Virus record (IMG/VR): IMGVR_UViG_3300042691_020057
Location: 1 to 40,609 of that record
DNA from: a virus
Strand: one strand, 5' to 3'
DNA length: 40,609 nt
Under the pieces are notes generated by a model, which was not told the origin of the DNA, did no database searches, and saw only the letters and a program-made list of their open reading frames with translations. The position numbers were made by a program, and so were the translations under genes. How positions within the stretch are numbered: the first letter of the stretch is position 1; every line of letters begins with the position of its first letter. Positions 4,024 to 40,205 of this stretch are shown in pieces.

Positions 4024-4829
4024 AAAACGAGAATAACTCTTTCCTCGTTTTCGATAAGTCGGAAACGGGTTTATTATATAACGACGAAAGTAACCCGTTA
4101 TACCCTATCCGGTATTACAACGTAGTTAATTCGGAGGGCTCGTATGGGCTTTATAAGAGCGGTTGCAGCTACTTTGGCTACGTCTATAATGGTAGCGTGG
4201 TACTTAGCACAGAAAAAAGGCCTGTGCAGGGGCTTTCTAAAGGTATGTACTTTTCCCTTTCAGAACCTTTCGAGATTTTAAACTATACCGCATATGGCTC
4301 TTTAATAGTCGTAGAGGTGTTAAATACAGCCGGGGCATACCAAAGTACCACCTATAGCTCTATGTACGCTGTAGGAGGCCCTATAGAAAAAATAGGACGG
4401 TTAAAATATATAGACGGCTGTACAGACAGTTTATTAATACCTCCGGTAAAGAAAGGAAACCCCTGTTTAAACCACTTGCATTTCCCTCCCGGAATAGACC
4501 AAACGCAGCACACCCACCCCTCTCATAGAATTGGTATAGTGGCAGGGGGTAATGGGGAATGTATTACCCCGTTCGGCAGTATGCCGCTAACGGAGGGAAC
4601 TATTTTTATTATTAAAGCGTGGGACGGTAGCACGTACTCCACAGGCGAAAGCGGCAGAGAATACCCTATAGGCCAACACGCCTTTAGGACCTTTGAAAAC
4701 ACTATGGACGTAATAGCCTTTCACCCGGACAGCGACTTTGGACCTACAGACGAAGCCCACCCTATGATAAACAGAACTATAGTAGAGGGTATTTCCGCTT
4801 CATTAATAGACTCTATTAGGACGAAATAA
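4020..4829 (+). CDS. Cupin-fold protein (269 aa)
   Basis: The C-terminal half is cupin-like: HLHFPPGIDQTQHTHPSHRI (residues 152-171) provides the HxH metal motif, followed by GIVAGGNGECITPFG, an EGTIFIIKA strand, and later histidines H220 and H235. The N-terminal half (residues 45-105) reads like a second beta-barrel without the histidines, so this may be a bicupin with one metal site. It overlaps the ParB gene by 4 nt and the PP-loop gene by 1 nt, so it is coupled to both. Cupins include dioxygenases, isomerases and sugar-modifying enzymes; the substrate cannot be told from sequence. Confidence 0.75.
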   Translation: MKNENNSFLVFDKSETGLLYNDESNPLYPIRYYNVVNSEGSYGLYKSGCSYFGYVYNGSVVLSTEKRPVQGLSKGMYFSLSEPFEILNYTAYGSLIVVEVLNTAGAYQSTTYSSMYAVGGPIEKIGRLKYIDGCTDSLLIPPVKKGNPCLNHLHFPPGIDQTQHTHPSHRIGIVAGGNGECITPFGSMPLTEGTIFIIKAWDGSTYSTGESGREYPIGQHAFRTFENTMDVIAFHPDSDFGPTDEAHPMINRTIVEGISASLIDSIRTK

Positions 4830-5608
4830 TGCTACGCGTTAAACAGGGAGAAAATAACGAGAGGTTTCTACGCACAGAGGCTGAGATACGCAGTATAATA
4901 AGCTTTGGTAGTATAAACAACCTAATAGATGCTACGGTAGAGGACATTAAAAAAAACCTTAAGGGCCGCTATGGCCTTGCGTGGAGTGGAGGTAAGGACA
5001 GCGTAGTATTAGATTTCGTATGTAAGAAAGTCGGAAATTACCCGTCCTGTATAGGTATGACAGACGAACTCGAATACCCGGAATTTTTAAGGTTTGTTAC
5101 TGAAAATATGCCCTCCGATTTAGTGGTGTATAATTCGGGGCATACTTTAAAATGGCTCTCAGAGAACGAAAGTTGGCTATTTCCCAAAACCGGGGAACAG
5201 GCGGCTAAATGGTTTAAGGCCGTTCAGCATAACGCACAGAATAAGTTTTACTCAGATAAGCGTTTAGACCTAATATTAACCGGGAGACGCATATTAGATA
5301 AAAACTTTTGCGGTACTAACGGGAAGTACTTAAACAAGTCTACCGGAGTAGTTCGGTATTCGCCCCTATACAAGTGGACGCACGAAGAGATTTTAGCCTG
5401 TATGTCGTATTACAACCTGCCCCGTGCACCTTTCTATAGTTGGCCTAATGGGTTTATAGTAGGTAGCGGAAGTTGGGCCGCGAGGCAATGGACCGGAAGC
5501 GTAGAGGCTGCGTGGTCGGAAGTTTATTCTATAGACTCTACCGTAGTATTAAAGGCCTCAGAATACATTAAAAGCGCGAAAGACTATGTGCGGACTTTGG
5601 GGGTTTGA
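4829..5608 (+). CDS. PP-loop ATPase, PAPS reductase-like (259 aa)
   Basis: GLAWSGGKDSVVLDFV carries the PP-loop SGGKDS at residues 53-58, which binds ATP and adenylates substrates in N-type ATP pyrophosphatases. The later segments LILTGRRILDKNFC and VVRYSPLYKWTHEEILACM, followed by NLPRAPFY, match the PAPS reductase/DndC arrangement. It starts at the TAATG junction with the cupin gene and overlaps the class II amidotransferase gene by 23 nt. A PP-loop ATPase coupled to a glutaminase recalls asparagine synthetase B and Gat-QueC, where ammonia from glutamine amidates an adenylated carboxylate. The substrate here is unknown; sulfur transfer is an alternative. Confidence 0.85.
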   Translation: MLRVKQGENNERFLRTEAEIRSIISFGSINNLIDATVEDIKKNLKGRYGLAWSGGKDSVVLDFVCKKVGNYPSCIGMTDELEYPEFLRFVTENMPSDLVVYNSGHTLKWLSENESWLFPKTGEQAAKWFKAVQHNAQNKFYSDKRLDLILTGRRILDKNFCGTNGKYLNKSTGVVRYSPLYKWTHEEILACMSYYNLPRAPFYSWPNGFIVGSGSWAARQWTGSVEAAWSEVYSIDSTVVLKASEYIKSAKDYVRTLGV

Positions 5609-6125
5609 GACGGTAGGAGGTAAGCCCTCTGAGTCTATTATACACGAAATAATACAAAGAGCGGACGAAAGAGGTGGACATTCGTACGGGCTGTACGCTT
5701 TAGACGGTAAGAGGAAAGCCCACGTAATAAAGGGGGAAGGTAGGGTAAATAGCTCGTATGTAATAGACCTGCTTAAAAACTGCGTTTTAGCTGTTGGCCA
5801 CAGTAGATTAGCGACCTATGGAGAACGCTCTATTAATAATACGCAGCCTTTAATATTAAAAGACTTCGTTATAGCGCATAATGGCAATATAGCGAACTAT
5901 AAAGAGATAATGTACGCTCACGGGTATATACCCACTACGGACGTAGATAGTGAAGCTATAGCGTGTTTAATGCACGAAAAAGAGCCTGTTATAAAAGGGG
6001 CGTACTTAGCGGTGGACCTTAAGAGGTTCGACGGCATTAAGTATTACTCCAACGGCTACCCGTTATACAAAACAAATATAAACGGGGTTAACTACTTTTG
6101 TTCTAAACTATGGGAAACGACTTAA
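5586..6125 (+). CDS. Class II glutamine amidotransferase domain protein (179 aa)
   Basis: Begins MCGLWGFE; removal of Met exposes Cys2 as the N-terminal nucleophile of Ntn-type glutaminases. Other conserved features are GHSRLATYG (R74), FVIAHNGNIANY (N99, G100) and TTDVDSEAIA (D121/E123), as in GlmS, PurF and AsnB. At 179 residues it is only the glutaminase domain, without the SIS or synthetase half. It overlaps PP-loop genes on both sides (23 and 16 nt), so the ammonia acceptor is probably one of those ATPases. The start is fixed by the required Met-Cys. Confidence 0.9.
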   Translation: MCGLWGFETVGGKPSESIIHEIIQRADERGGHSYGLYALDGKRKAHVIKGEGRVNSSYVIDLLKNCVLAVGHSRLATYGERSINNTQPLILKDFVIAHNGNIANYKEIMYAHGYIPTTDVDSEAIACLMHEKEPVIKGAYLAVDLKRFDGIKYYSNGYPLYKTNINGVNYFCSKLWETT

Positions 6126-7926: not shown

Positions 7927-8244
7927 ATGGCTTTCCCACACGACGGTAAAAAATTTAAAAAAGGACAGTCCGGAAACCCCGGAGGCAGGCCTAAAGCACT
8001 TCCCGACATAAAGGACGTATTAATAGACGCTTTAGGGGAAGAGCAGAATGGTGTTAGTGCGCTTAAGGCTATAGTACTTAGCCTACGTAATAAGGCCCTT
8101 AAAGGGGACGTAAAGAGCTGTCTTTCGCTTATCGAAATGTACTACGGTAAGCCAAAGCAAACGGTAGAGCAGCGGTTCGACTCTAACGAGCCGTTAGTGA
8201 TTGTATTGAGCGACGAAGCTCCTAATGAAAATTCGGCCGAATGA
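7927..8244 (+). CDS. Probable terminase small subunit (DUF5681-like, 105 aa)
   Basis: The N-terminus KFKKGQSGNPGGRPKALPDI is the DUF5681 signature (KGQSGNPGGRP) found in small proteins just upstream of phage large terminases. Helices follow (IKDVLIDALG, ALKAIVLSLRNKALKGD, VKSCLSLIEMYYGKPKQ). It would recognise the packaging site and load the large subunit. A non-coding array of dyad repeats lies between it and terL, suggesting it binds there. Small terminases are poorly conserved, so this rests on motif and position. Confidence 0.7.
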   Translation: MAFPHDGKKFKKGQSGNPGGRPKALPDIKDVLIDALGEEQNGVSALKAIVLSLRNKALKGDVKSCLSLIEMYYGKPKQTVEQRFDSNEPLVIVLSDEAPNENSAE

Positions 8245-8252
8245 GTAATACA

Positions 8253-8546
8253 GCGAATTGTATTAGAAACGGAATAGAATTCGTGGCCGTAACCGTTGCA
8301 ACGAATTGTATTAATACGCTCCCTTCCGCTAATAGAATTTCTTATTACAACCGTTGGAACGAATTGTATTAGAGGGAAGGGGCTCTCTAATAGAATTTCT
8401 TATTACAACCGTTCTAACGAATTCTATTAATGACAGGCATATGTCTAATAGGAATTGTAGAGAAAAGCGTTCTAACGAATTCTATTAGCGTAAATACCCG
8501 GTCTAATAGAATTGCTTACTATAACCGTTGTAACGAATTGTATTAA
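8253..8546. repeat. 58-bp-period array of 44-bp dyad repeats between terS and terL
   Basis: This fills the 328-nt gene-free gap. Each unit opens CTAATAGAATT, has CGTTnnAACG at its centre-right, and ends CGAATTSTATTAR. Units lie at 8271-8314, 8329-8372, 8387-8430, 8445-8488 and 8503-8546, starting exactly 58 bp apart. A further right arm ends at 8266, 48 bp before the end of the first full unit. The 8329 and 8387 units share 27 identical leading bases. Unit 8329-8372 is also flanked by CCCTTCC and GGGAAGG, extending its dyad. Candidate roles: packaging (pac) site, or operator of the terL/tail operon. Confidence 0.9.
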
Positions 8547-8572
8547 TTTAGAAACAAATTACACGCAGGCGA

Positions 8573-9850
8573 ATGAGAGTAAACCTCACTAATAGACAGT
8601 CTTTAGCATATAAGGACGCTGTATACAATAATAAGCGCGTCGTAGTATTCGGTGGGGCTATTAGAGGGGGGAAAACGTGGTGGCTACTTATTACACTCAG
8701 TAGCCTCGCATTAATGTATGACAGGTCTCGGTGGGTTATTATAAGAAAGACTCTTCCCGACCTAAAGCGTACGACCTTCCCCTCATTTCAATCTATATTA
8801 CTTTCCGGGCTACAGGGAAAGGTTAAATCGTGGAATAAGGACACTAACGTTATAACGTTTAATAACGACAGCGAACTGCTTTTTATGACAGAGAACTACT
8901 CGGAAGATAAGGACCTAAACCGCTTTAGAGGGCTCGAGGTAAACGGAGCAGGGCTTGACGAAGTAAACGAATTACAGGAAGCGACGTTCTACAAGGTGCA
9001 GGAACGTATAGGTTCGTGGAATTCAGCAAAGGGAAACCCTCCTATAGTCTGTTTAGCTACCTGTAACCCGGCTAATAATTGGGTTAAGGAAATTATATAT
9101 AAGCGTTATAAGGAGGGGACTCTACCGGAGAAATGGAGTTATATACCCTCTAAAATAACAGACAACCCCTATATACCCAAAGAATACTTAGAGTCATTAA
9201 AAGAGCTCCCACCTATACAGTATGCGCGGTTCGTGGAGGGGGATTGGGAGGTAATGGATGACAGCGTTAACCCTTTCCTATATGAATTCGACGAACGTAA
9301 GCATATAGATGACAGCATAACTCTTAACCGGAATATTCCGGTATATTTCTCTGTAGACTTTAACGTTAACCCTCTATGCGGCCTCGTAATACAACAGGTC
9401 GGAAAGTCTATGTATGTAGTGGACGAAATACGAGCAGACAGAGGAAGCATAGACGCGTTATGCGACAGGATAGAGGCCTATAATATACCCACCGGGTTAA
9501 TACGAATTACCGGGGACGCTATGGGTGCAGGGCGGTCCGTTTTCCTCCGGGACAATTCGAGCGCGTATATGATTATTAAAAAGCGTCTACACCTTTCGGA
9601 CGGACAGTTTATTATACCACAGAACCCGACTCATAAAAATAGCCGTATTGACTGTAACGCTGTATTAAAGCGGCTCGAGGTTAAGATAAACAGCGTAAGC
9701 TGTAAGGGCTTCCTTTATGACTGCAAACGGGTAGAGTGCGACTCCGAAGGTGGCATAATAAAACAAAACAGAAATAAACTACAGGAACGTGCAGACTATT
9801 TAGATTGTTTTCGTTATTTTGTAAACGCAAAAATGAAACCGCTTTTATGA
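8573..9850 (+). CDS. terL: Terminase large subunit (425 aa)
   Basis: ATP-driven DNA packaging motor. Walker A is GGAIRGGKT (residues 27-35), Walker B with catalytic acid is GAGLDE (125-130), and the coupling motif is LATCNPAN (161-168). The C-terminal RNase H-like nuclease begins with VYFSVDFNVNP (D262), has a second acid in RITGDAMG (D315) and ends with ERADYLDCFRYFVN. Length is normal for the family. Its ATG is 26 nt after the repeat array, and I see no consensus promoter in between. It overlaps the next gene by 4 nt. Confidence 0.95.
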   Translation: MRVNLTNRQSLAYKDAVYNNKRVVVFGGAIRGGKTWWLLITLSSLALMYDRSRWVIIRKTLPDLKRTTFPSFQSILLSGLQGKVKSWNKDTNVITFNNDSELLFMTENYSEDKDLNRFRGLEVNGAGLDEVNELQEATFYKVQERIGSWNSAKGNPPIVCLATCNPANNWVKEIIYKRYKEGTLPEKWSYIPSKITDNPYIPKEYLESLKELPPIQYARFVEGDWEVMDDSVNPFLYEFDERKHIDDSITLNRNIPVYFSVDFNVNPLCGLVIQQVGKSMYVVDEIRADRGSIDALCDRIEAYNIPTGLIRITGDAMGAGRSVFLRDNSSAYMIIKKRLHLSDGQFIIPQNPTHKNSRIDCNAVLKRLEVKINSVSCKGFLYDCKRVECDSEGGIIKQNRNKLQERADYLDCFRYFVNAKMKPLL

Positions 9851-22744: not shown

Positions 22745-22806
22745 GTTATTTCTGTCCGATTTTTGCCGCTATTCATTTGAAAAACAGTTACGACGAAAAC
22801 TCCGAC

Positions 22807-22912
22807 ATTCTATTAGAGCATTAATAGAATTCGTTTAGACGTTTGTTACAACGAATTTCTGTCCGGAGCTAATACAATTCGTACTAACGACCGTGGTTAA
22901 AGATTGTATTAA
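22807..22912. repeat. Second dyad array (48-bp period) before the scaffold operon
   Basis: Same repeat family as 8253-8546. A right arm ATTCTATTAG is at 22807-22816. Unit 22821-22864 has TTAATAGAATTCGTT and AACGAATT at the family spacing but a decayed last arm. Unit 22869-22912 is CTAATACAATTCG ... ATTGTATTAA, 44 bp. The right ends lie at 22816, 22864 and 22912, so the period is 48 bp, ten less than in the first array. The array directly abuts the -33 element of the next promoter. Confidence 0.85.
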
Positions 22913-22944
22913 TTTGGTTTCGTAAACTAATAGTATTATATTTG
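22913..22944 (+). promoter_or_regulatory. Promoter of the scaffold/head unit, next to the dyad array
   Basis: TTTG 22913-22916, 20 bp, TATATTTG 22937-22944, with ATG at 22949 only 4 nt after the final G. The transcript should be leaderless or nearly so. The -33 element touches the last dyad unit, so a protein bound to the array could contact RNA polymerase or block it. Confidence 0.75.
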
Positions 22945-22948
22945 CATT

Positions 22949-23140
22949 ATGGTTTATGTTTTGCCCGACGGGCGCATAGTGCGCCTTAATAAAAGCTTAG
23001 AAGCTGTAGCCCTTAAAAAGGGCGGTAAACCTTTAATACTGCAACCAATTAAATTCGAATATGGCAATAACACCGGAACAGGCAATGGACTTAGTGAAGT
23101 TCATAAACCTGCACGAAGAAGAGGACGTAGAAAAAGCTAA
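22949..23140 (+). CDS. Small basic protein before scaffold (63 aa)
   Basis: MVYVLPDGRIVRLNKSLEAV, ending with a very basic tail (KPARRRGRRKS). The promoter is positioned for this start. The last 80 nt overlap the scaffold gene in another frame, so the basic tail may partly reflect the scaffold's reading frame. No family recognised. It could be a head-assembly peptide. Confidence 0.55.
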   Translation: MVYVLPDGRIVRLNKSLEAVALKKGGKPLILQPIKFEYGNNTGTGNGLSEVHKPARRRGRRKS

Positions 23141-24046: not shown

Positions 24047-24637
24047 GTGGGTTTCGTTAAAAATACTTCCTATTATAGGGGTATAGTATACGAATGGAAC
24101 TTACCCACGGGCTCTACCTGTCCCTTTGCTAAAGAGTGTAAAGTATCCGTAGACAGGCATACGGGTAAGTTTAGCGTACAGGACGGTATATATAGATGCT
24201 ATGCCGCGAACCCGGAACGCTTCCCCGGAGTAAGAGAGCACAGGTGGAAAAACTTTGAATTAGTACGAAATAATAAAATTTCGAGAATACCTCCCGACTG
24301 TAAAGCCATACGCATACACGCGGCAGGGGACTTTTTTAACCAAGCGTATTTCGACCTTTGGCTTAATGTGGCTTTACGAAACCCTCATATAGAAATATGG
24401 GCCTATACTAAGAGCTTAACTTATTGGGTAGCACGTTTAGGAGCTATACCGCCAAACTTAACGCTTACCGCCTCCTATGGAGGTCGCACAGATTACCTAA
24501 TAGAGCAGTATAATCTAAAAAACGTTGTAGTATATCCTAACCGGGCCGCTGTTCCACCGGAAAGGCCTATAGATACGAACGACGATTACGCACGGCTAAA
24601 GGCTGTAAACTTTGCTTTATTGGACAACTTCAAATAA
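24047..24637 (+). CDS. GP88-family protein (196 aa)
   Basis: GTG start directly after the preceding stop. GSTCPFAKECKVSVDRHTGK, then KAIRIHAAGDFFNQAYFDLW and HIEIWAYTKSLTYW match the phage gene product 88 family, which has an N-terminal cysteine cluster and a conserved R-H-x-x-GDFF ... YTKS core. The biochemical role of the family is not established. It lies in the accessory block between scaffold and capsid genes. Confidence 0.75.
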   Translation: MGFVKNTSYYRGIVYEWNLPTGSTCPFAKECKVSVDRHTGKFSVQDGIYRCYAANPERFPGVREHRWKNFELVRNNKISRIPPDCKAIRIHAAGDFFNQAYFDLWLNVALRNPHIEIWAYTKSLTYWVARLGAIPPNLTLTASYGGRTDYLIEQYNLKNVVVYPNRAAVPPERPIDTNDDYARLKAVNFALLDNFK

Positions 24638-24691
24638 TGCGCCTGTAAATCAGAGCGTTATAAGTTTTTTTTCATTTTTTTTTTGAAAAAG

Positions 24692-24722
24692 TTTGCAAAA
24701 CCAAAAAAGAGGTGTACATTTG
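24692..24722 (+). promoter_or_regulatory. Bacteroidota-type promoter
   Basis: TTTG 24692-24695, 19 bp, TACATTTG 24715-24722, preceded by TTTTGAAAAAG. An A-rich 31-nt leader leads to ATG 24754. It overlaps an in-frame upstream ATG at 24712, which is therefore rejected as a start. Confidence 0.87.
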
Positions 24723-24753
24723 CATATCTCAAAACACAAAAAAAAAACTCAAA

Positions 24754-25669: not shown

Positions 25670-25733
25670 AATGCTCATAATAAAGCACTTAGAAAATAAT
25701 TTATAAAAAAAACGTGTTTTTCTTTTGAAAGAG

Positions 25734-25764
25734 TTTGCAAAATCAAAAACTCTTTCTATATTTG
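25734..25764 (+). promoter_or_regulatory. Bacteroidota-type promoter
   Basis: TTTG 25734-25737, 19 bp, TATATTTG 25757-25764, within the shared block GAGTTTGCAAAATCAAAAAC. The leader to ATG 25806 is about 40 nt and ends AAGCACTATGGAAAC, the same string as at other early genes. Confidence 0.88.
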
Positions 25765-25805
25765 CATATCAAAACAAACGAAAAAACACAAAAACTCTAA
25801 GCACT

Positions 25806-31373: not shown

Positions 31374-31544
31374 TTAGATTGGAAAGCTATGAAGCACCTC
31401 CATTAGTTCGTCGAGCTTATCTGATAATTCAATAAACTTAGGCGTTTGTTCGTGGTTTCCGTATTGGTCGCAAGGGAGGTTTAAATTTAAAATACCTTTT
31501 TCGATTGCTTCGATTTCTGCGATTATTGAATTTCTTGTTTTCAT
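31374..31544 (-). CDS. Small hypothetical minus-strand protein (56 aa)
   Basis: MKTRNSIIAEIEAIEKGILN, then CDQYGNHEQTPKFIELSDKL and DELMEVLHSFP; two helices separated by a loop. Start chosen at 31544 because the promoter core at 31566-31596 sits just upstream; a longer start at 31595 would lie inside the promoter. The start codon overlaps the only CATG noticed in the genome. Unknown function. Confidence 0.6.
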   Translation of the reverse strand: MKTRNSIIAEIEAIEKGILNLNLPCDQYGNHEQTPKFIELSDKLDELMEVLHSFPI

Positions 31545-31565
31545 GGCTGCTTTTGTTTTGTTTGA

Positions 31566-31596
31566 CAAATATACAACCATTATTTGATTTTGCAAA
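31566..31596 (-). promoter_or_regulatory. Bacteroidota-type promoter, minus strand
   Basis: On the minus strand TTTG (complement of 31593-31596), 19 bp, TATATTTG (complement of 31566-31573), with AAAGTTTGCAAAATCAAAT around the -33 as in plus-strand early promoters. The leader AAACAAAACAAAAGCAGCC leads to ATG at 31544. Confidence 0.88.
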
Positions 31597-31625
31597 CTTT
31601 ATCAAAAAATAATTCAAAATATTTT

Positions 31626-32706: not shown

Positions 32707-33273
32707 ATGTCTGTCTACTATATACTCGATAACTCTTTAGATATATTATACGCAGTTACAGAACCCTCCGGGGAACTCGTAGAGTCGAACGAGCTTTTTA
32801 AGGGCTTTACGTCGCATATAAAGCCACGAAAGTTTAAAGACGTGTTAGAAGATGGTTCGGACGTAGATGCGTTATTACAGGCCGTTAAAAGAGCTAACGA
32901 GCACGAACCCGAATGCGTACGCTTCTACGCTAAGACAAAACAGAAAAGCGGTGCGGCCCGGTGGATAATGTGGAATGTATACTGCATTAACGGGGCTTTA
33001 CACTTTATAGGGGTAAATTTATATGACGTAACTTCCATAACGAACCACGAATACGAGCGGCAACAGATACTATTAGAAGAGTTTAGGTTTATGCTTTCGC
33101 ACGAACTTAGACAGCCCTTAACCTCTGTTTCGAGTTTAATATCTTTGCTGCTTAATAAAGCGAATATGGACGAAAAAGAGAGAAATAAAATGCTTAAGAT
33201 GATAGCGGAAAGCGTAGAGAAATTGGACGAAAGCATTAAGGCCTTAGTCCGAAAAGCTGCACGGGAATTGTAA
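32707..33273 (+). CDS. PAS plus HisKA domain protein without kinase domain (188 aa)
   Basis: Residues 1-112 fit a PAS-like sensor (YYILDNSLDILYAVTEPSGE, ending HFIGVNLYDVTSITN). Residues 122-185 form a histidine kinase dimerisation/phosphoacceptor hairpin: FRFMLSHELRQPLTSVSSLI holds the H-box with H132, and KMLKMIAESVEKLDESIKAL is the second helix. The ATP-binding domain (N, G1, F, G2 boxes) is absent and the stop is clean. It could be a phospho-acceptor or decoy that captures host two-component signals. It is encoded in the lysis cluster, so it may influence lysis timing; both ideas are inference. Confidence 0.85.
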   Translation: MSVYYILDNSLDILYAVTEPSGELVESNELFKGFTSHIKPRKFKDVLEDGSDVDALLQAVKRANEHEPECVRFYAKTKQKSGAARWIMWNVYCINGALHFIGVNLYDVTSITNHEYERQQILLEEFRFMLSHELRQPLTSVSSLISLLLNKANMDEKERNKMLKMIAESVEKLDESIKALVRKAAREL

Positions 33274-34384: not shown

Positions 34385-34696
34385 ATGGAAACAACTCAAG
34401 CAAATGGCGTTATAACTGCGAAAACGCGGTTTAGAACGTCGGACGGTTCGTACTTTTGCTACGACCACATCGAAGGGGTACTCGTAACGGTAATAGCCGA
34501 CGGGGCTCGAAAAGGAATTTTTACTCGAACGGATAGCACAGCGTCTATGTTAGCGCGACAGTTCCACTTAGAGGAAATGCACAACGTACCCGACGAAAGC
34601 AGGCTTTACTTCCCACTAACGGAAAGACAGTTTAAGCAAAAGCTTTGGACTATTTTAAACGACGTAGATAATACATTACACTATACTGCACTATGA
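34385..34696 (+). CDS. Hypothetical early protein (103 aa)
   Basis: METTQANGVITAKTRFRTSD; basic at the N-terminus, beta-rich, no membrane segment. It leads the replication operon and overlaps the HTH regulator by 4 nt. No family recognised; a DNA-binding or recombination accessory role is possible from position only. Confidence 0.6.
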   Translation: METTQANGVITAKTRFRTSDGSYFCYDHIEGVLVTVIADGARKGIFTRTDSTASMLARQFHLEEMHNVPDESRLYFPLTERQFKQKLWTILNDVDNTLHYTAL

Positions 34697-35193
34697 AACA
34701 GCCACGTTACACGCATATAAAAAACGTCGATTTTAAAAAATTAACGTGGATACTTTCGCAAAGAAAAAACGACCTTAAACTTTCTGAATACGATATTTCG
34801 AAAGAGACAGGGTTAAGCGCAAGCGGTATAAATAACATACTCCGTAATAGATTTAACCCTTCGTGGAGGTCTATGAAAGCTATATGTAGCGCATTAAAAA
34901 TAGACTACAAAGCAGCTATAGAGGTATGCAAAATACAGCCGGACATTAGCACGGGAGAACCTAAGACTAAAATAGAATTAGTTACTATGCCGGAAGTAGA
35001 AACTACTGAAACAGTAGCGGTAGGTCCTGTGCAGGGCACGTTAGAACTCGAAATAGAAACGAGCCCAACCCGGTCGCAAAGACTAAGCAACATAATAAAA
35101 AACAGTTTTGAAAGGCAGGCGGTAGAATACCTACTAAACTTAGGTTATAAAATCGAAAAGCCTGTAACTGTAACCACATACGTAACCCTTTAA
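34693..35193 (+). CDS. XRE-type HTH regulator (166 aa)
   Basis: LTWILSQRKNDLKLSEYDIS then KETGLSASGINNILRNRFNP, SWRSMKAICSALKID is a lambda-repressor-like helix-turn-helix (residues 17-72). The rest is a Glu/Thr-rich linker and a C-terminal helix (LSNIIKNSFERQAVEYLLNL) that may oligomerise. No protease or integrase partner accompanies it, so it is more likely a regulator of early genes than a lysogeny repressor. Confidence 0.8.
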   Translation: MKQPRYTHIKNVDFKKLTWILSQRKNDLKLSEYDISKETGLSASGINNILRNRFNPSWRSMKAICSALKIDYKAAIEVCKIQPDISTGEPKTKIELVTMPEVETTETVAVGPVQGTLELEIETSPTRSQRLSNIIKNSFERQAVEYLLNLGYKIEKPVTVTTYVTL

Positions 35194-37644: not shown

Positions 37645-38355
37645 ATGAATAGAAAATCTTTTATAATGTACGTCGATTGGTTCGACACTATAAAGCACCT
37701 GCCTAACGAGCAGTTAGGAGACCTAATAAGGCACGTATACGACTACGTAATAGACGGGACATTAGTAGACGTATCTAACCCTCTCTTTTTCGTTTTTAAC
37801 CCTATTAGGCTGCAAATAGACAGAGACAGCAACGCATACGATAAGATACGCGAACAGCGGTCTATAGCAGGCAAAATATCTGCTAATAAACGAAAGGAGT
37901 TAAACCCGGTTAACGAAGGTGCAACAAATGCAACAAGTGTTAACAGCGTTCAACAGAGTTCAACCGCGTTAACTGTTAATGTAAATGATAATGTAAATGA
38001 TACTGTTATTAAAAGAAAGAGGCAGTCCAAAGAGCCTCCTTTCGATTTTAGGAGTGTATCTTATTTTAAGGACAGTTCTATAAACGAACTCTTTTATGAG
38101 TACTTAGATAGCAGGGTTAAGAATAAGCAACCCGTAACGGAATTGGTTATAGAAAGGATAGTTAAAAAGTGTAAGTCTACCTTTCCTACAGCGTCGATGT
38201 TTAAACAGGCTTTAGAGGACACAATAGAGCACGGGTGGAAGGGAATATACTTAAAAGAGACTCCTAATATTACAGGCGAAAAGTCCCCTAAAAATACCCA
38301 ACTAAACGACACAGAGCCGCGTTCGTGGAAAGCCGGAAACCTAAACTCTAAGTAA
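37645..38355 (+). CDS. DUF6291-like replication initiator (236 aa)
   Basis: MNRKSFIMYVDWFDTIKHLP then LIRHVYDYVIDGTLVDV and PLFFVFNPIRLQID match the N-terminal helical domain of DUF6291 proteins of Bacteroidota phages and prophages. A Ser/Thr/Asn/Val linker (ATNATSVNSVQQSSTALTVN) follows, whose DNA is made of tandem repeats (37920-38004), then a C-terminal helical domain. Position before dnaB parallels lambda O before P; a role in origin recognition and helicase loading is likely. Confidence 0.65.
   Translation: MNRKSFIMYVDWFDTIKHLPNEQLGDLIRHVYDYVIDGTLVDVSNPLFFVFNPIRLQIDRDSNAYDKIREQRSIAGKISANKRKELNPVNEGATNATSVNSVQQSSTALTVNVNDNVNDTVIKRKRQSKEPPFDFRSVSYFKDSSINELFYEYLDSRVKNKQPVTELVIERIVKKCKSTFPTASMFKQALEDTIEHGWKGIYLKETPNITGEKSPKNTQLNDTEPRSWKAGNLNSK
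37920..38004. repeat. Iteron-like tandem repeats inside the initiator gene
   Basis: Two 9-bp units TGCAACAAA/TGCAACAAG (37920-37937), then four 10-bp units AGTGTTAACA, GCGTTCAACA, GAGTTCAACC, GCGTTAACTG (37936-37975; consensus GTTNAAC), then two exact 12-bp units TAATGTAAATGA (37977-37988 and 37989-38000). The 10-bp period is out of phase with codons, so it is probably kept for DNA function. A lambda-like origin within the initiator gene is the natural reading. Confidence 0.7.
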
Positions 38356-39862: not shown

Positions 39863-39890
39863 CCGCTGTGAGCAAGGCTTTCAGAAGGAC
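39856..39890. repeat. Element B, matching 22711-22744
   Basis: GCGTTTTCCGCTGTGAGCAA followed by GGCTTTCAGAAGGAC; about 30 of 34 positions match element A. The two copies lie 17 kb apart, each in a gene-free gap. Unknown function. Confidence 0.75.
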
Positions 39891-39910
39891 TAAAAAAAGT
39901 TTAGAAAAAG

Positions 39911-39941
39911 TTTGCAAAACCAAATACTCTTTCTATATTTG
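39911..39941 (+). promoter_or_regulatory. Bacteroidota-type promoter
   Basis: TTTG 39911-39914, 19 bp, TATATTTG 39934-39941, in the shared block AAAAAGTTTGCAAAACCAAA. The leader TCAAACGAAAAACAAAAAAG leads to CACTATGGAAAC at 39963-39974. Confidence 0.88.
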
Positions 39942-39965
39942 TCAAACGAAAAACAAAAAAGCACT

Positions 39966-40205
39966 ATGGAAACAAAAGCACTAAGAATTGAAGTAGACGC
40001 TAACGAAGCGGAAAAGGCCTCATTAATCATAAAAAAAAGCGACTTAGAAAACAGGTTTATATGCCTTGTAAGCCGAATAACTAAAACCCTTTGGAGCATA
40101 TCTGTAGACTTTACAGATAATACAGAGAATGAAAGGGAGCGAGTTTGGGACGCTGTAGAATTCCAATTAACTACCGGGGGCGTAGAAAATTTTAAAATTT
40201 CTTAA
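39966..40205 (+). CDS. Hypothetical early protein (79 aa)
   Basis: METKALRIEVDANEAEKASL; ATG 39966 chosen since an upstream in-frame start at 39912 lies in the promoter. Helix-strand mixture, charged, soluble. It opens with the same MET-K/T codons as other promoter-proximal genes. No family recognised. Confidence 0.6.
   Translation: METKALRIEVDANEAEKASLIIKKSDLENRFICLVSRITKTLWSISVDFTDNTENERERVWDAVEFQLTTGGVENFKIS

Follow-up and report, generated by a model that had tools for sequence, protein, structure and literature searches.

What is the short array of inverted repeats that leads up to the scaffold promoter of this phage, and does it belong to a wider system of control? We examined this in a 40.6-kb viral record (G000; hereafter the window, meaning the whole stretch of DNA analysed), in which nearly all long ORFs are on one strand and the ends overlap by approximately 70 bp. 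The virus is one of Bacteroidota-type bacteria and uses promoters of that type, TTTG-N-TAnnTTTG, of which 10 were found in the window against 1.2 expected; TAnnTTTG is the Bacteroides -7 consensus (PMC4747536). The closest available relative was IMGVR_UViG_3300042471_000537 (G001; TerL, 89%; portal, 92%), and a portal search yielded no further close relatives. Comparison extended to about 80 further loci with TerL approximately 70% alike and to 47 further loci matching in the scaffold gene at 44-52%. The window and G001 also have in common dispersed promoter cassettes of about 80 bp, TTTGCAAAAYCAAA...TAnnTTTG (48-138, 1140-1223, 24632-24753, 25714-25794, 31537-31619 and 39889-39966), and each encodes a HisKA (histidine-kinase dimerisation) domain protein, located at 32707-33273 in this phage genome. 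PAPS-reductase-like and glutamine-amidotransferase-like genes at 4829-6125 are missing from G001, and the occurrence of ParB-like and PAPS-reductase-like genes near that position suggests a DNA-modification module.

The scaffold promoter, which is without the TTTGCAAAAYCAAA-type element present at most other promoters of the window, and the repeats around it comprise the following features.

22806..22815, minus strand: lone right half-site R0, CATTCTATTA (minus-strand reading TAATAGAATG); 8 of 10 positions kept in G001.
22822..22863, no strand: dyad 1, 42 bp; left arm (22822-22831) perfect (PWM score 21.1), right arm badly degraded.
22870..22911, no strand: dyad 2, 42 bp; left arm (22870-22879) and right arm R2 (22902-22911, GATTGTATTA) both good; R2 identical at 10 of 10 positions in G001.
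22912..22927, no strand: 16-bp linker containing the -33 TTTG (22913-22916).
22913..22944, plus strand: Bacteroidota-type promoter TTTG-N20-TATATTTG, driving a 63-aa gene and the scaffold operon; ATG at 22949.
22928..22937, plus strand: extra left arm L3, TAATAGTATT, matching at 9 of 10 positions, inside the promoter spacer; G001 has TAATACAATT at the same place, matching at 10 of 10.

The 22.8-kb array consists of one good dyad, one half-degraded dyad and the lone half-site R0, together with the promoter-embedded L3. The original prediction placed right arms ending at 22816, 22864 and 22912; those at 22806-22815 and 22902-22911 were confirmed, whereas the middle one (22854-22863; AATTTCTGTC) proved to be badly degraded. 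It also had the last unit touching the -33 TTTG, and the array does reach the promoter, but L3 had been overlooked and carries the array past that box. L3 is in register (22870 + 58), the chance of a 9/10 match at a fixed position being about 2e-4, and because it lies inside the promoter spacer the array runs through the -33 box, which R2 and L3 flank; sites are thus found both at and within the promoter. In most relatives an ATG comes 4-5 nt after TAnnTTTG (window 22937-22951), and throughout the phage group the mRNA of the scaffold operon probably has little or no leader.

The same half-site, TAATASAATT(CGTT), giving the dyad form TAATASAATT...AATTSTATTA, is common to this array and to a second one at 8.3 kb. 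All seven dyads measure 42 bp from arm to arm (about four helical turns), and the linkers are 6, 16, 16, 16 and 16 bp in the 8.3-kb array and 6 and 6 bp in the 22.8-kb array; since 6- and 16-bp linkers differ by one helical turn, helical phasing is kept. The 22.8-kb array does have the 10-bp shorter period reported earlier, its left arms starting 48 bp apart (22822 and 22870); the linkers account for the difference (6 versus 16 bp), and a 48-bp step also opens the 8.3-kb array. A scoring matrix (PWM) built from the 8.3-kb array alone and run over the whole window recovered the 22.8-kb array, with 21.1 bits for the left arm at 22822 and 17.7 bits for that at 22870, scores at which about 0 and about 0.01 matches, respectively, would be expected in the whole window. 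The highest score outside both arrays was 12.7, so that the scan upheld the claim of two sites only and found no scattered copies. The repeated dyads with their common consensus thus exceed chance, as expected of an operator array, and confinement of the shared motif to two places in the window fits a two-site regulon. From its sequence, we consider it rather likely that the 22.8-kb feature is an array of operators through which a sequence-specific DNA-binding protein, encoded by the phage, governs the scaffold promoter. Outside the window, the exact arm-pair pattern matched 106 stretches of viral contigs, none with the unit interior; the half-site pattern CGTTNNAACGAATTSTATTA gave one single match in viral and seven in bacterial genomes, with no array in those examined; BLASTN with the array against phages and plasmids gave nothing convincing; Rfam gave no match at gathering thresholds; and no description of such an element was found in the literature.

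The 8.3-kb array lies between terS and terL and has the following parts.

8238..8245, plus strand: left copy of an 8-bp flanking duplication, CGAATGAG, at the end of terS.
8246..8569, no strand: inserted array, 324 bp, with a lone right half-site (8256-8265) and five 42-bp dyads (starting at 8272, 8330, 8388, 8446 and 8504).
8570..8577, plus strand: right copy of the duplication, CGAATGAG, at the start of terL.

Where the junction can be read in relatives, terS mostly overlaps terL in what appears to be the ancestral form, ...GAATGAG...; G001 has a variant form with an 11-bp overlap and no array, and some other relatives have a short gap or another gene at this position. TTTG is absent from 8246-8572 and TAnnTTTG from 8201-8700 on both strands, leaving no recognisable promoter in the array region. 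Because the genes mostly overlap in relatives, CGAATGAG flanks the insert and these promoter elements are absent, the 8.3-kb array is, on sequence comparison, a derived insertion within an operon, not an operon start. The proposal that the two arrays mark the starts of two late operons, and hence a regulon, therefore holds for the shared motif, its restriction to two sites and the position of the 22.8-kb array in a promoter of conserved place, but not for the 8.3-kb array, which is a promoterless insertion.

Such an insertion could be a mobile element of MITE or BIME type that originated from the scaffold-promoter sites, duplicated 8 bp of its target and has no regulatory role at terL, and its absence where the junction of relatives is readable and the presence of CGAATGAG on both flanks agree with this. 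We nevertheless regard this explanation as unlikely: of the hallmarks of REPIN, BIME and MITE elements the duplication is present, but no terminal inverted repeat was seen, no transposase was found among the proteins scanned and no other copy turned up in public viral or bacterial genomes, and the retention in G001 of arms within the promoter is left unaccounted for. In addition, between units of the 8.3-kb array the arms are 88-94% identical, whereas the 16-bp linkers are 29% identical on average; alike arms with unrelated linkers argue for constraint on the 42-bp sites, fitting selection rather than fresh tandem duplication, and so for a function.

A role at the RNA level, with transcribed hairpins acting as attenuators or RNA-stability elements, was suggested by the folding of the 328-nt terS/terL spacer, which is better than that of shuffled sequences (z -4.45). 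Good folding, however, follows from any DNA dyad and is to be expected of a palindromic array. Base-pair covariation reached the observed score in 163 of 500 shuffles, pairing counts were not above those of shuffles, so that compensatory stem changes did not exceed chance, and at arm position 6 a G commonly stands opposite a G. Since, moreover, the scaffold array is upstream of the expected start and would be outside that transcript, an RNA element is highly improbable, and these observations support a symmetry that acts at the DNA level, with a protein binding DNA.

It is very doubtful that the small terminase binds the arrays as packaging (pac/cos-like) sites, for which the terS/terL position would be a necessity and the second copy a secondary site. 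The position between terS and terL suits this idea, and pac sites are often near terS, but G001, whose TerS is 94% identical over 94 residues, has neither a terS/terL array nor a strong motif match anywhere, and relatives with terS and terL directly joined likewise lack the array; the site is thus not common to phages with near-identical TerS. A replication origin or a partition (centromere-like) array, which tandem palindromes may bring to mind through their resemblance to iterons or sopC, and to which the iteron-like arrays of relatives approximately 2 kb before terL would lend some colour, is also very improbable, since the window has genes for DnaB and for an O-like initiator, the latter gene containing short tandem repeats (37942-38006), and G001 has the same replication genes without arrays. 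Those repeats (AACAGCGTTC, 2.9 copies, and TAATGTAAATGA, 2.5 copies), within the initiator gene at 37645-38355 and beside DnaB, are a possible lambda-like origin of the window phage. The iteron-like arrays of relatives are phage-specific (GGACAGCTT, AGTGGTCCA, GGACAGGCA and others; L144:7877-8152, L187:6903-7191 and about 20 other relatives) and are set in CA/TA-rich DNA that follows a large ORF (707 aa in L144); they have the look of replication origins, with iterons that vary from phage to phage.

Returning to the operator array, we found that its promoter-proximal part is shared with one relative. The 360-bp intergenic leader of G001 is only 62% identical to that of the window, with R2 identical, L3 perfect in the same register and the upstream dyad eroded; G001 has no strong PWM match anywhere, so that conservation of the arm pair is seen in two genomes. 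TAnnTTTG was present at the promoter place in 41 of the 49 scaffold leaders examined (G001 and 48 others). An arm pair, with each arm matching at 8 or more of 10 positions in the register of a 42-bp dyad or a 6- or 16-bp linker, was found in G001 alone, and in none of the 48 others. On this comparison, arms close to the promoter characterise the window/G001 lineage, and the window was the only place where we found multi-unit arrays. Because G001 keeps only the promoter-proximal arms, without the 8.3-kb array, we interpret the element as a means of control restricted to this lineage rather than as a late regulon general to the group.

A candidate for the protein that binds the array shows a similar distribution.

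34693..35193, plus strand: candidate cognate regulator, 166 aa, with an XRE/HTH_3 domain; found only in the window and G001.

The G001 homologue is 66% identical, with a nearly identical recognition region. Of 15 further records, 14 had no homologue and the one match (G011) was weak (26% over 77 residues); none of the 128 relative loci gave a match at E 1e-4, and in 22 of these loci the two neighbours of the gene are directly adjacent, with the gene missing between them. In the AlphaFold model only the HTH domain is confident (mean pLDDT 64), and the match to 3fya is weak and non-significant (E 0.052). The gene has no array upstream and is approximately 11.8 kb from the nearer array. By co-occurrence alone, this product is likely to be the array-binding protein; a single lineage acquired the HTH_3 gene, the promoter arms and other genes that share the pattern, so that their co-occurrence represents a single evolutionary contrast.

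If the array is an operator, protein units would bind each dyad and contact one another along the phased array, resulting in cooperative occupancy. Occupied promoter-proximal arms, with L3 between -33 and -7, would block RNA polymerase, while an activator could occupy the dyad whose centre is approximately 57 bp before the expected start. We favour repression of the scaffold operon, released late in infection, because the innermost arms sit on the core promoter, with activation as the main alternative. Simple promoter control does not explain the role of the promoterless 8.3-kb array, which might be a tightly bound partner of the other array, in a loop or as a sink, or might hinder transcription into terL. 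Phage CI proteins alone are reported to be weak roadblocks but better ones when looped (PMC10310618), so that a looping role for the arrays is possible.

Three known systems offer partial parallels. P2 Ogr and P4 delta are activators of phage late promoters that use a dyad near -55, similar to the dyad centred at about -57 upstream of this structural-gene promoter; however, the window has arms within the core promoter as well, and no Ogr/delta homologue was found among the proteins scanned. Restriction-modification controller (C) proteins have tandem dimer sites, one for activation and a promoter-overlapping one for repression, and resemble the present system in the tandem sites and the XRE-type HTH candidate, but the operators differ in sequence and length and the 3fya match of the candidate is not significant. 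Phage CI-type operator clusters (lambda OR/OL, phage 186 CI) likewise combine several spaced dyads, some over a promoter and others kilobases away, with an XRE-type HTH protein, and phage 186 CI uses distal sites with DNA wrapping or looping (PMC8053113). In contrast to these clusters, the dyads of the window are 42 bp with 10-bp arms and 6- or 16-bp linkers, and the arrays are at the scaffold promoter and terS/terL, not in an immunity region; we recognised no lysogeny genes in the window, no integrase among the proteins scanned, and no repressor gene beside the operators with divergent early promoters.

A bolder scenario, which we put forward tentatively and think on balance improbable, is that a newly acquired XRE regulator rewired a promoter position used group-wide, with the scaffold promoter losing the common TTTGC..TCAAA-type element and gaining phased operators through -33, and that a second array without a promoter was later seeded between terS and terL in one lineage, coupling the supply of scaffold and packaging motor by protein contact over 14 kb. 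Transcription control in phages of Bacteroidota-type hosts has been little described. Here, a promoter position is common to a large uncultured phage group and one lineage seems to have replaced its control with a new operator system and, apparently, a new regulator; G001 represents an intermediate in public data. If true, this would provide a compact case of the evolution of structural-gene control in phages, together with a testable regulator/operator pair.
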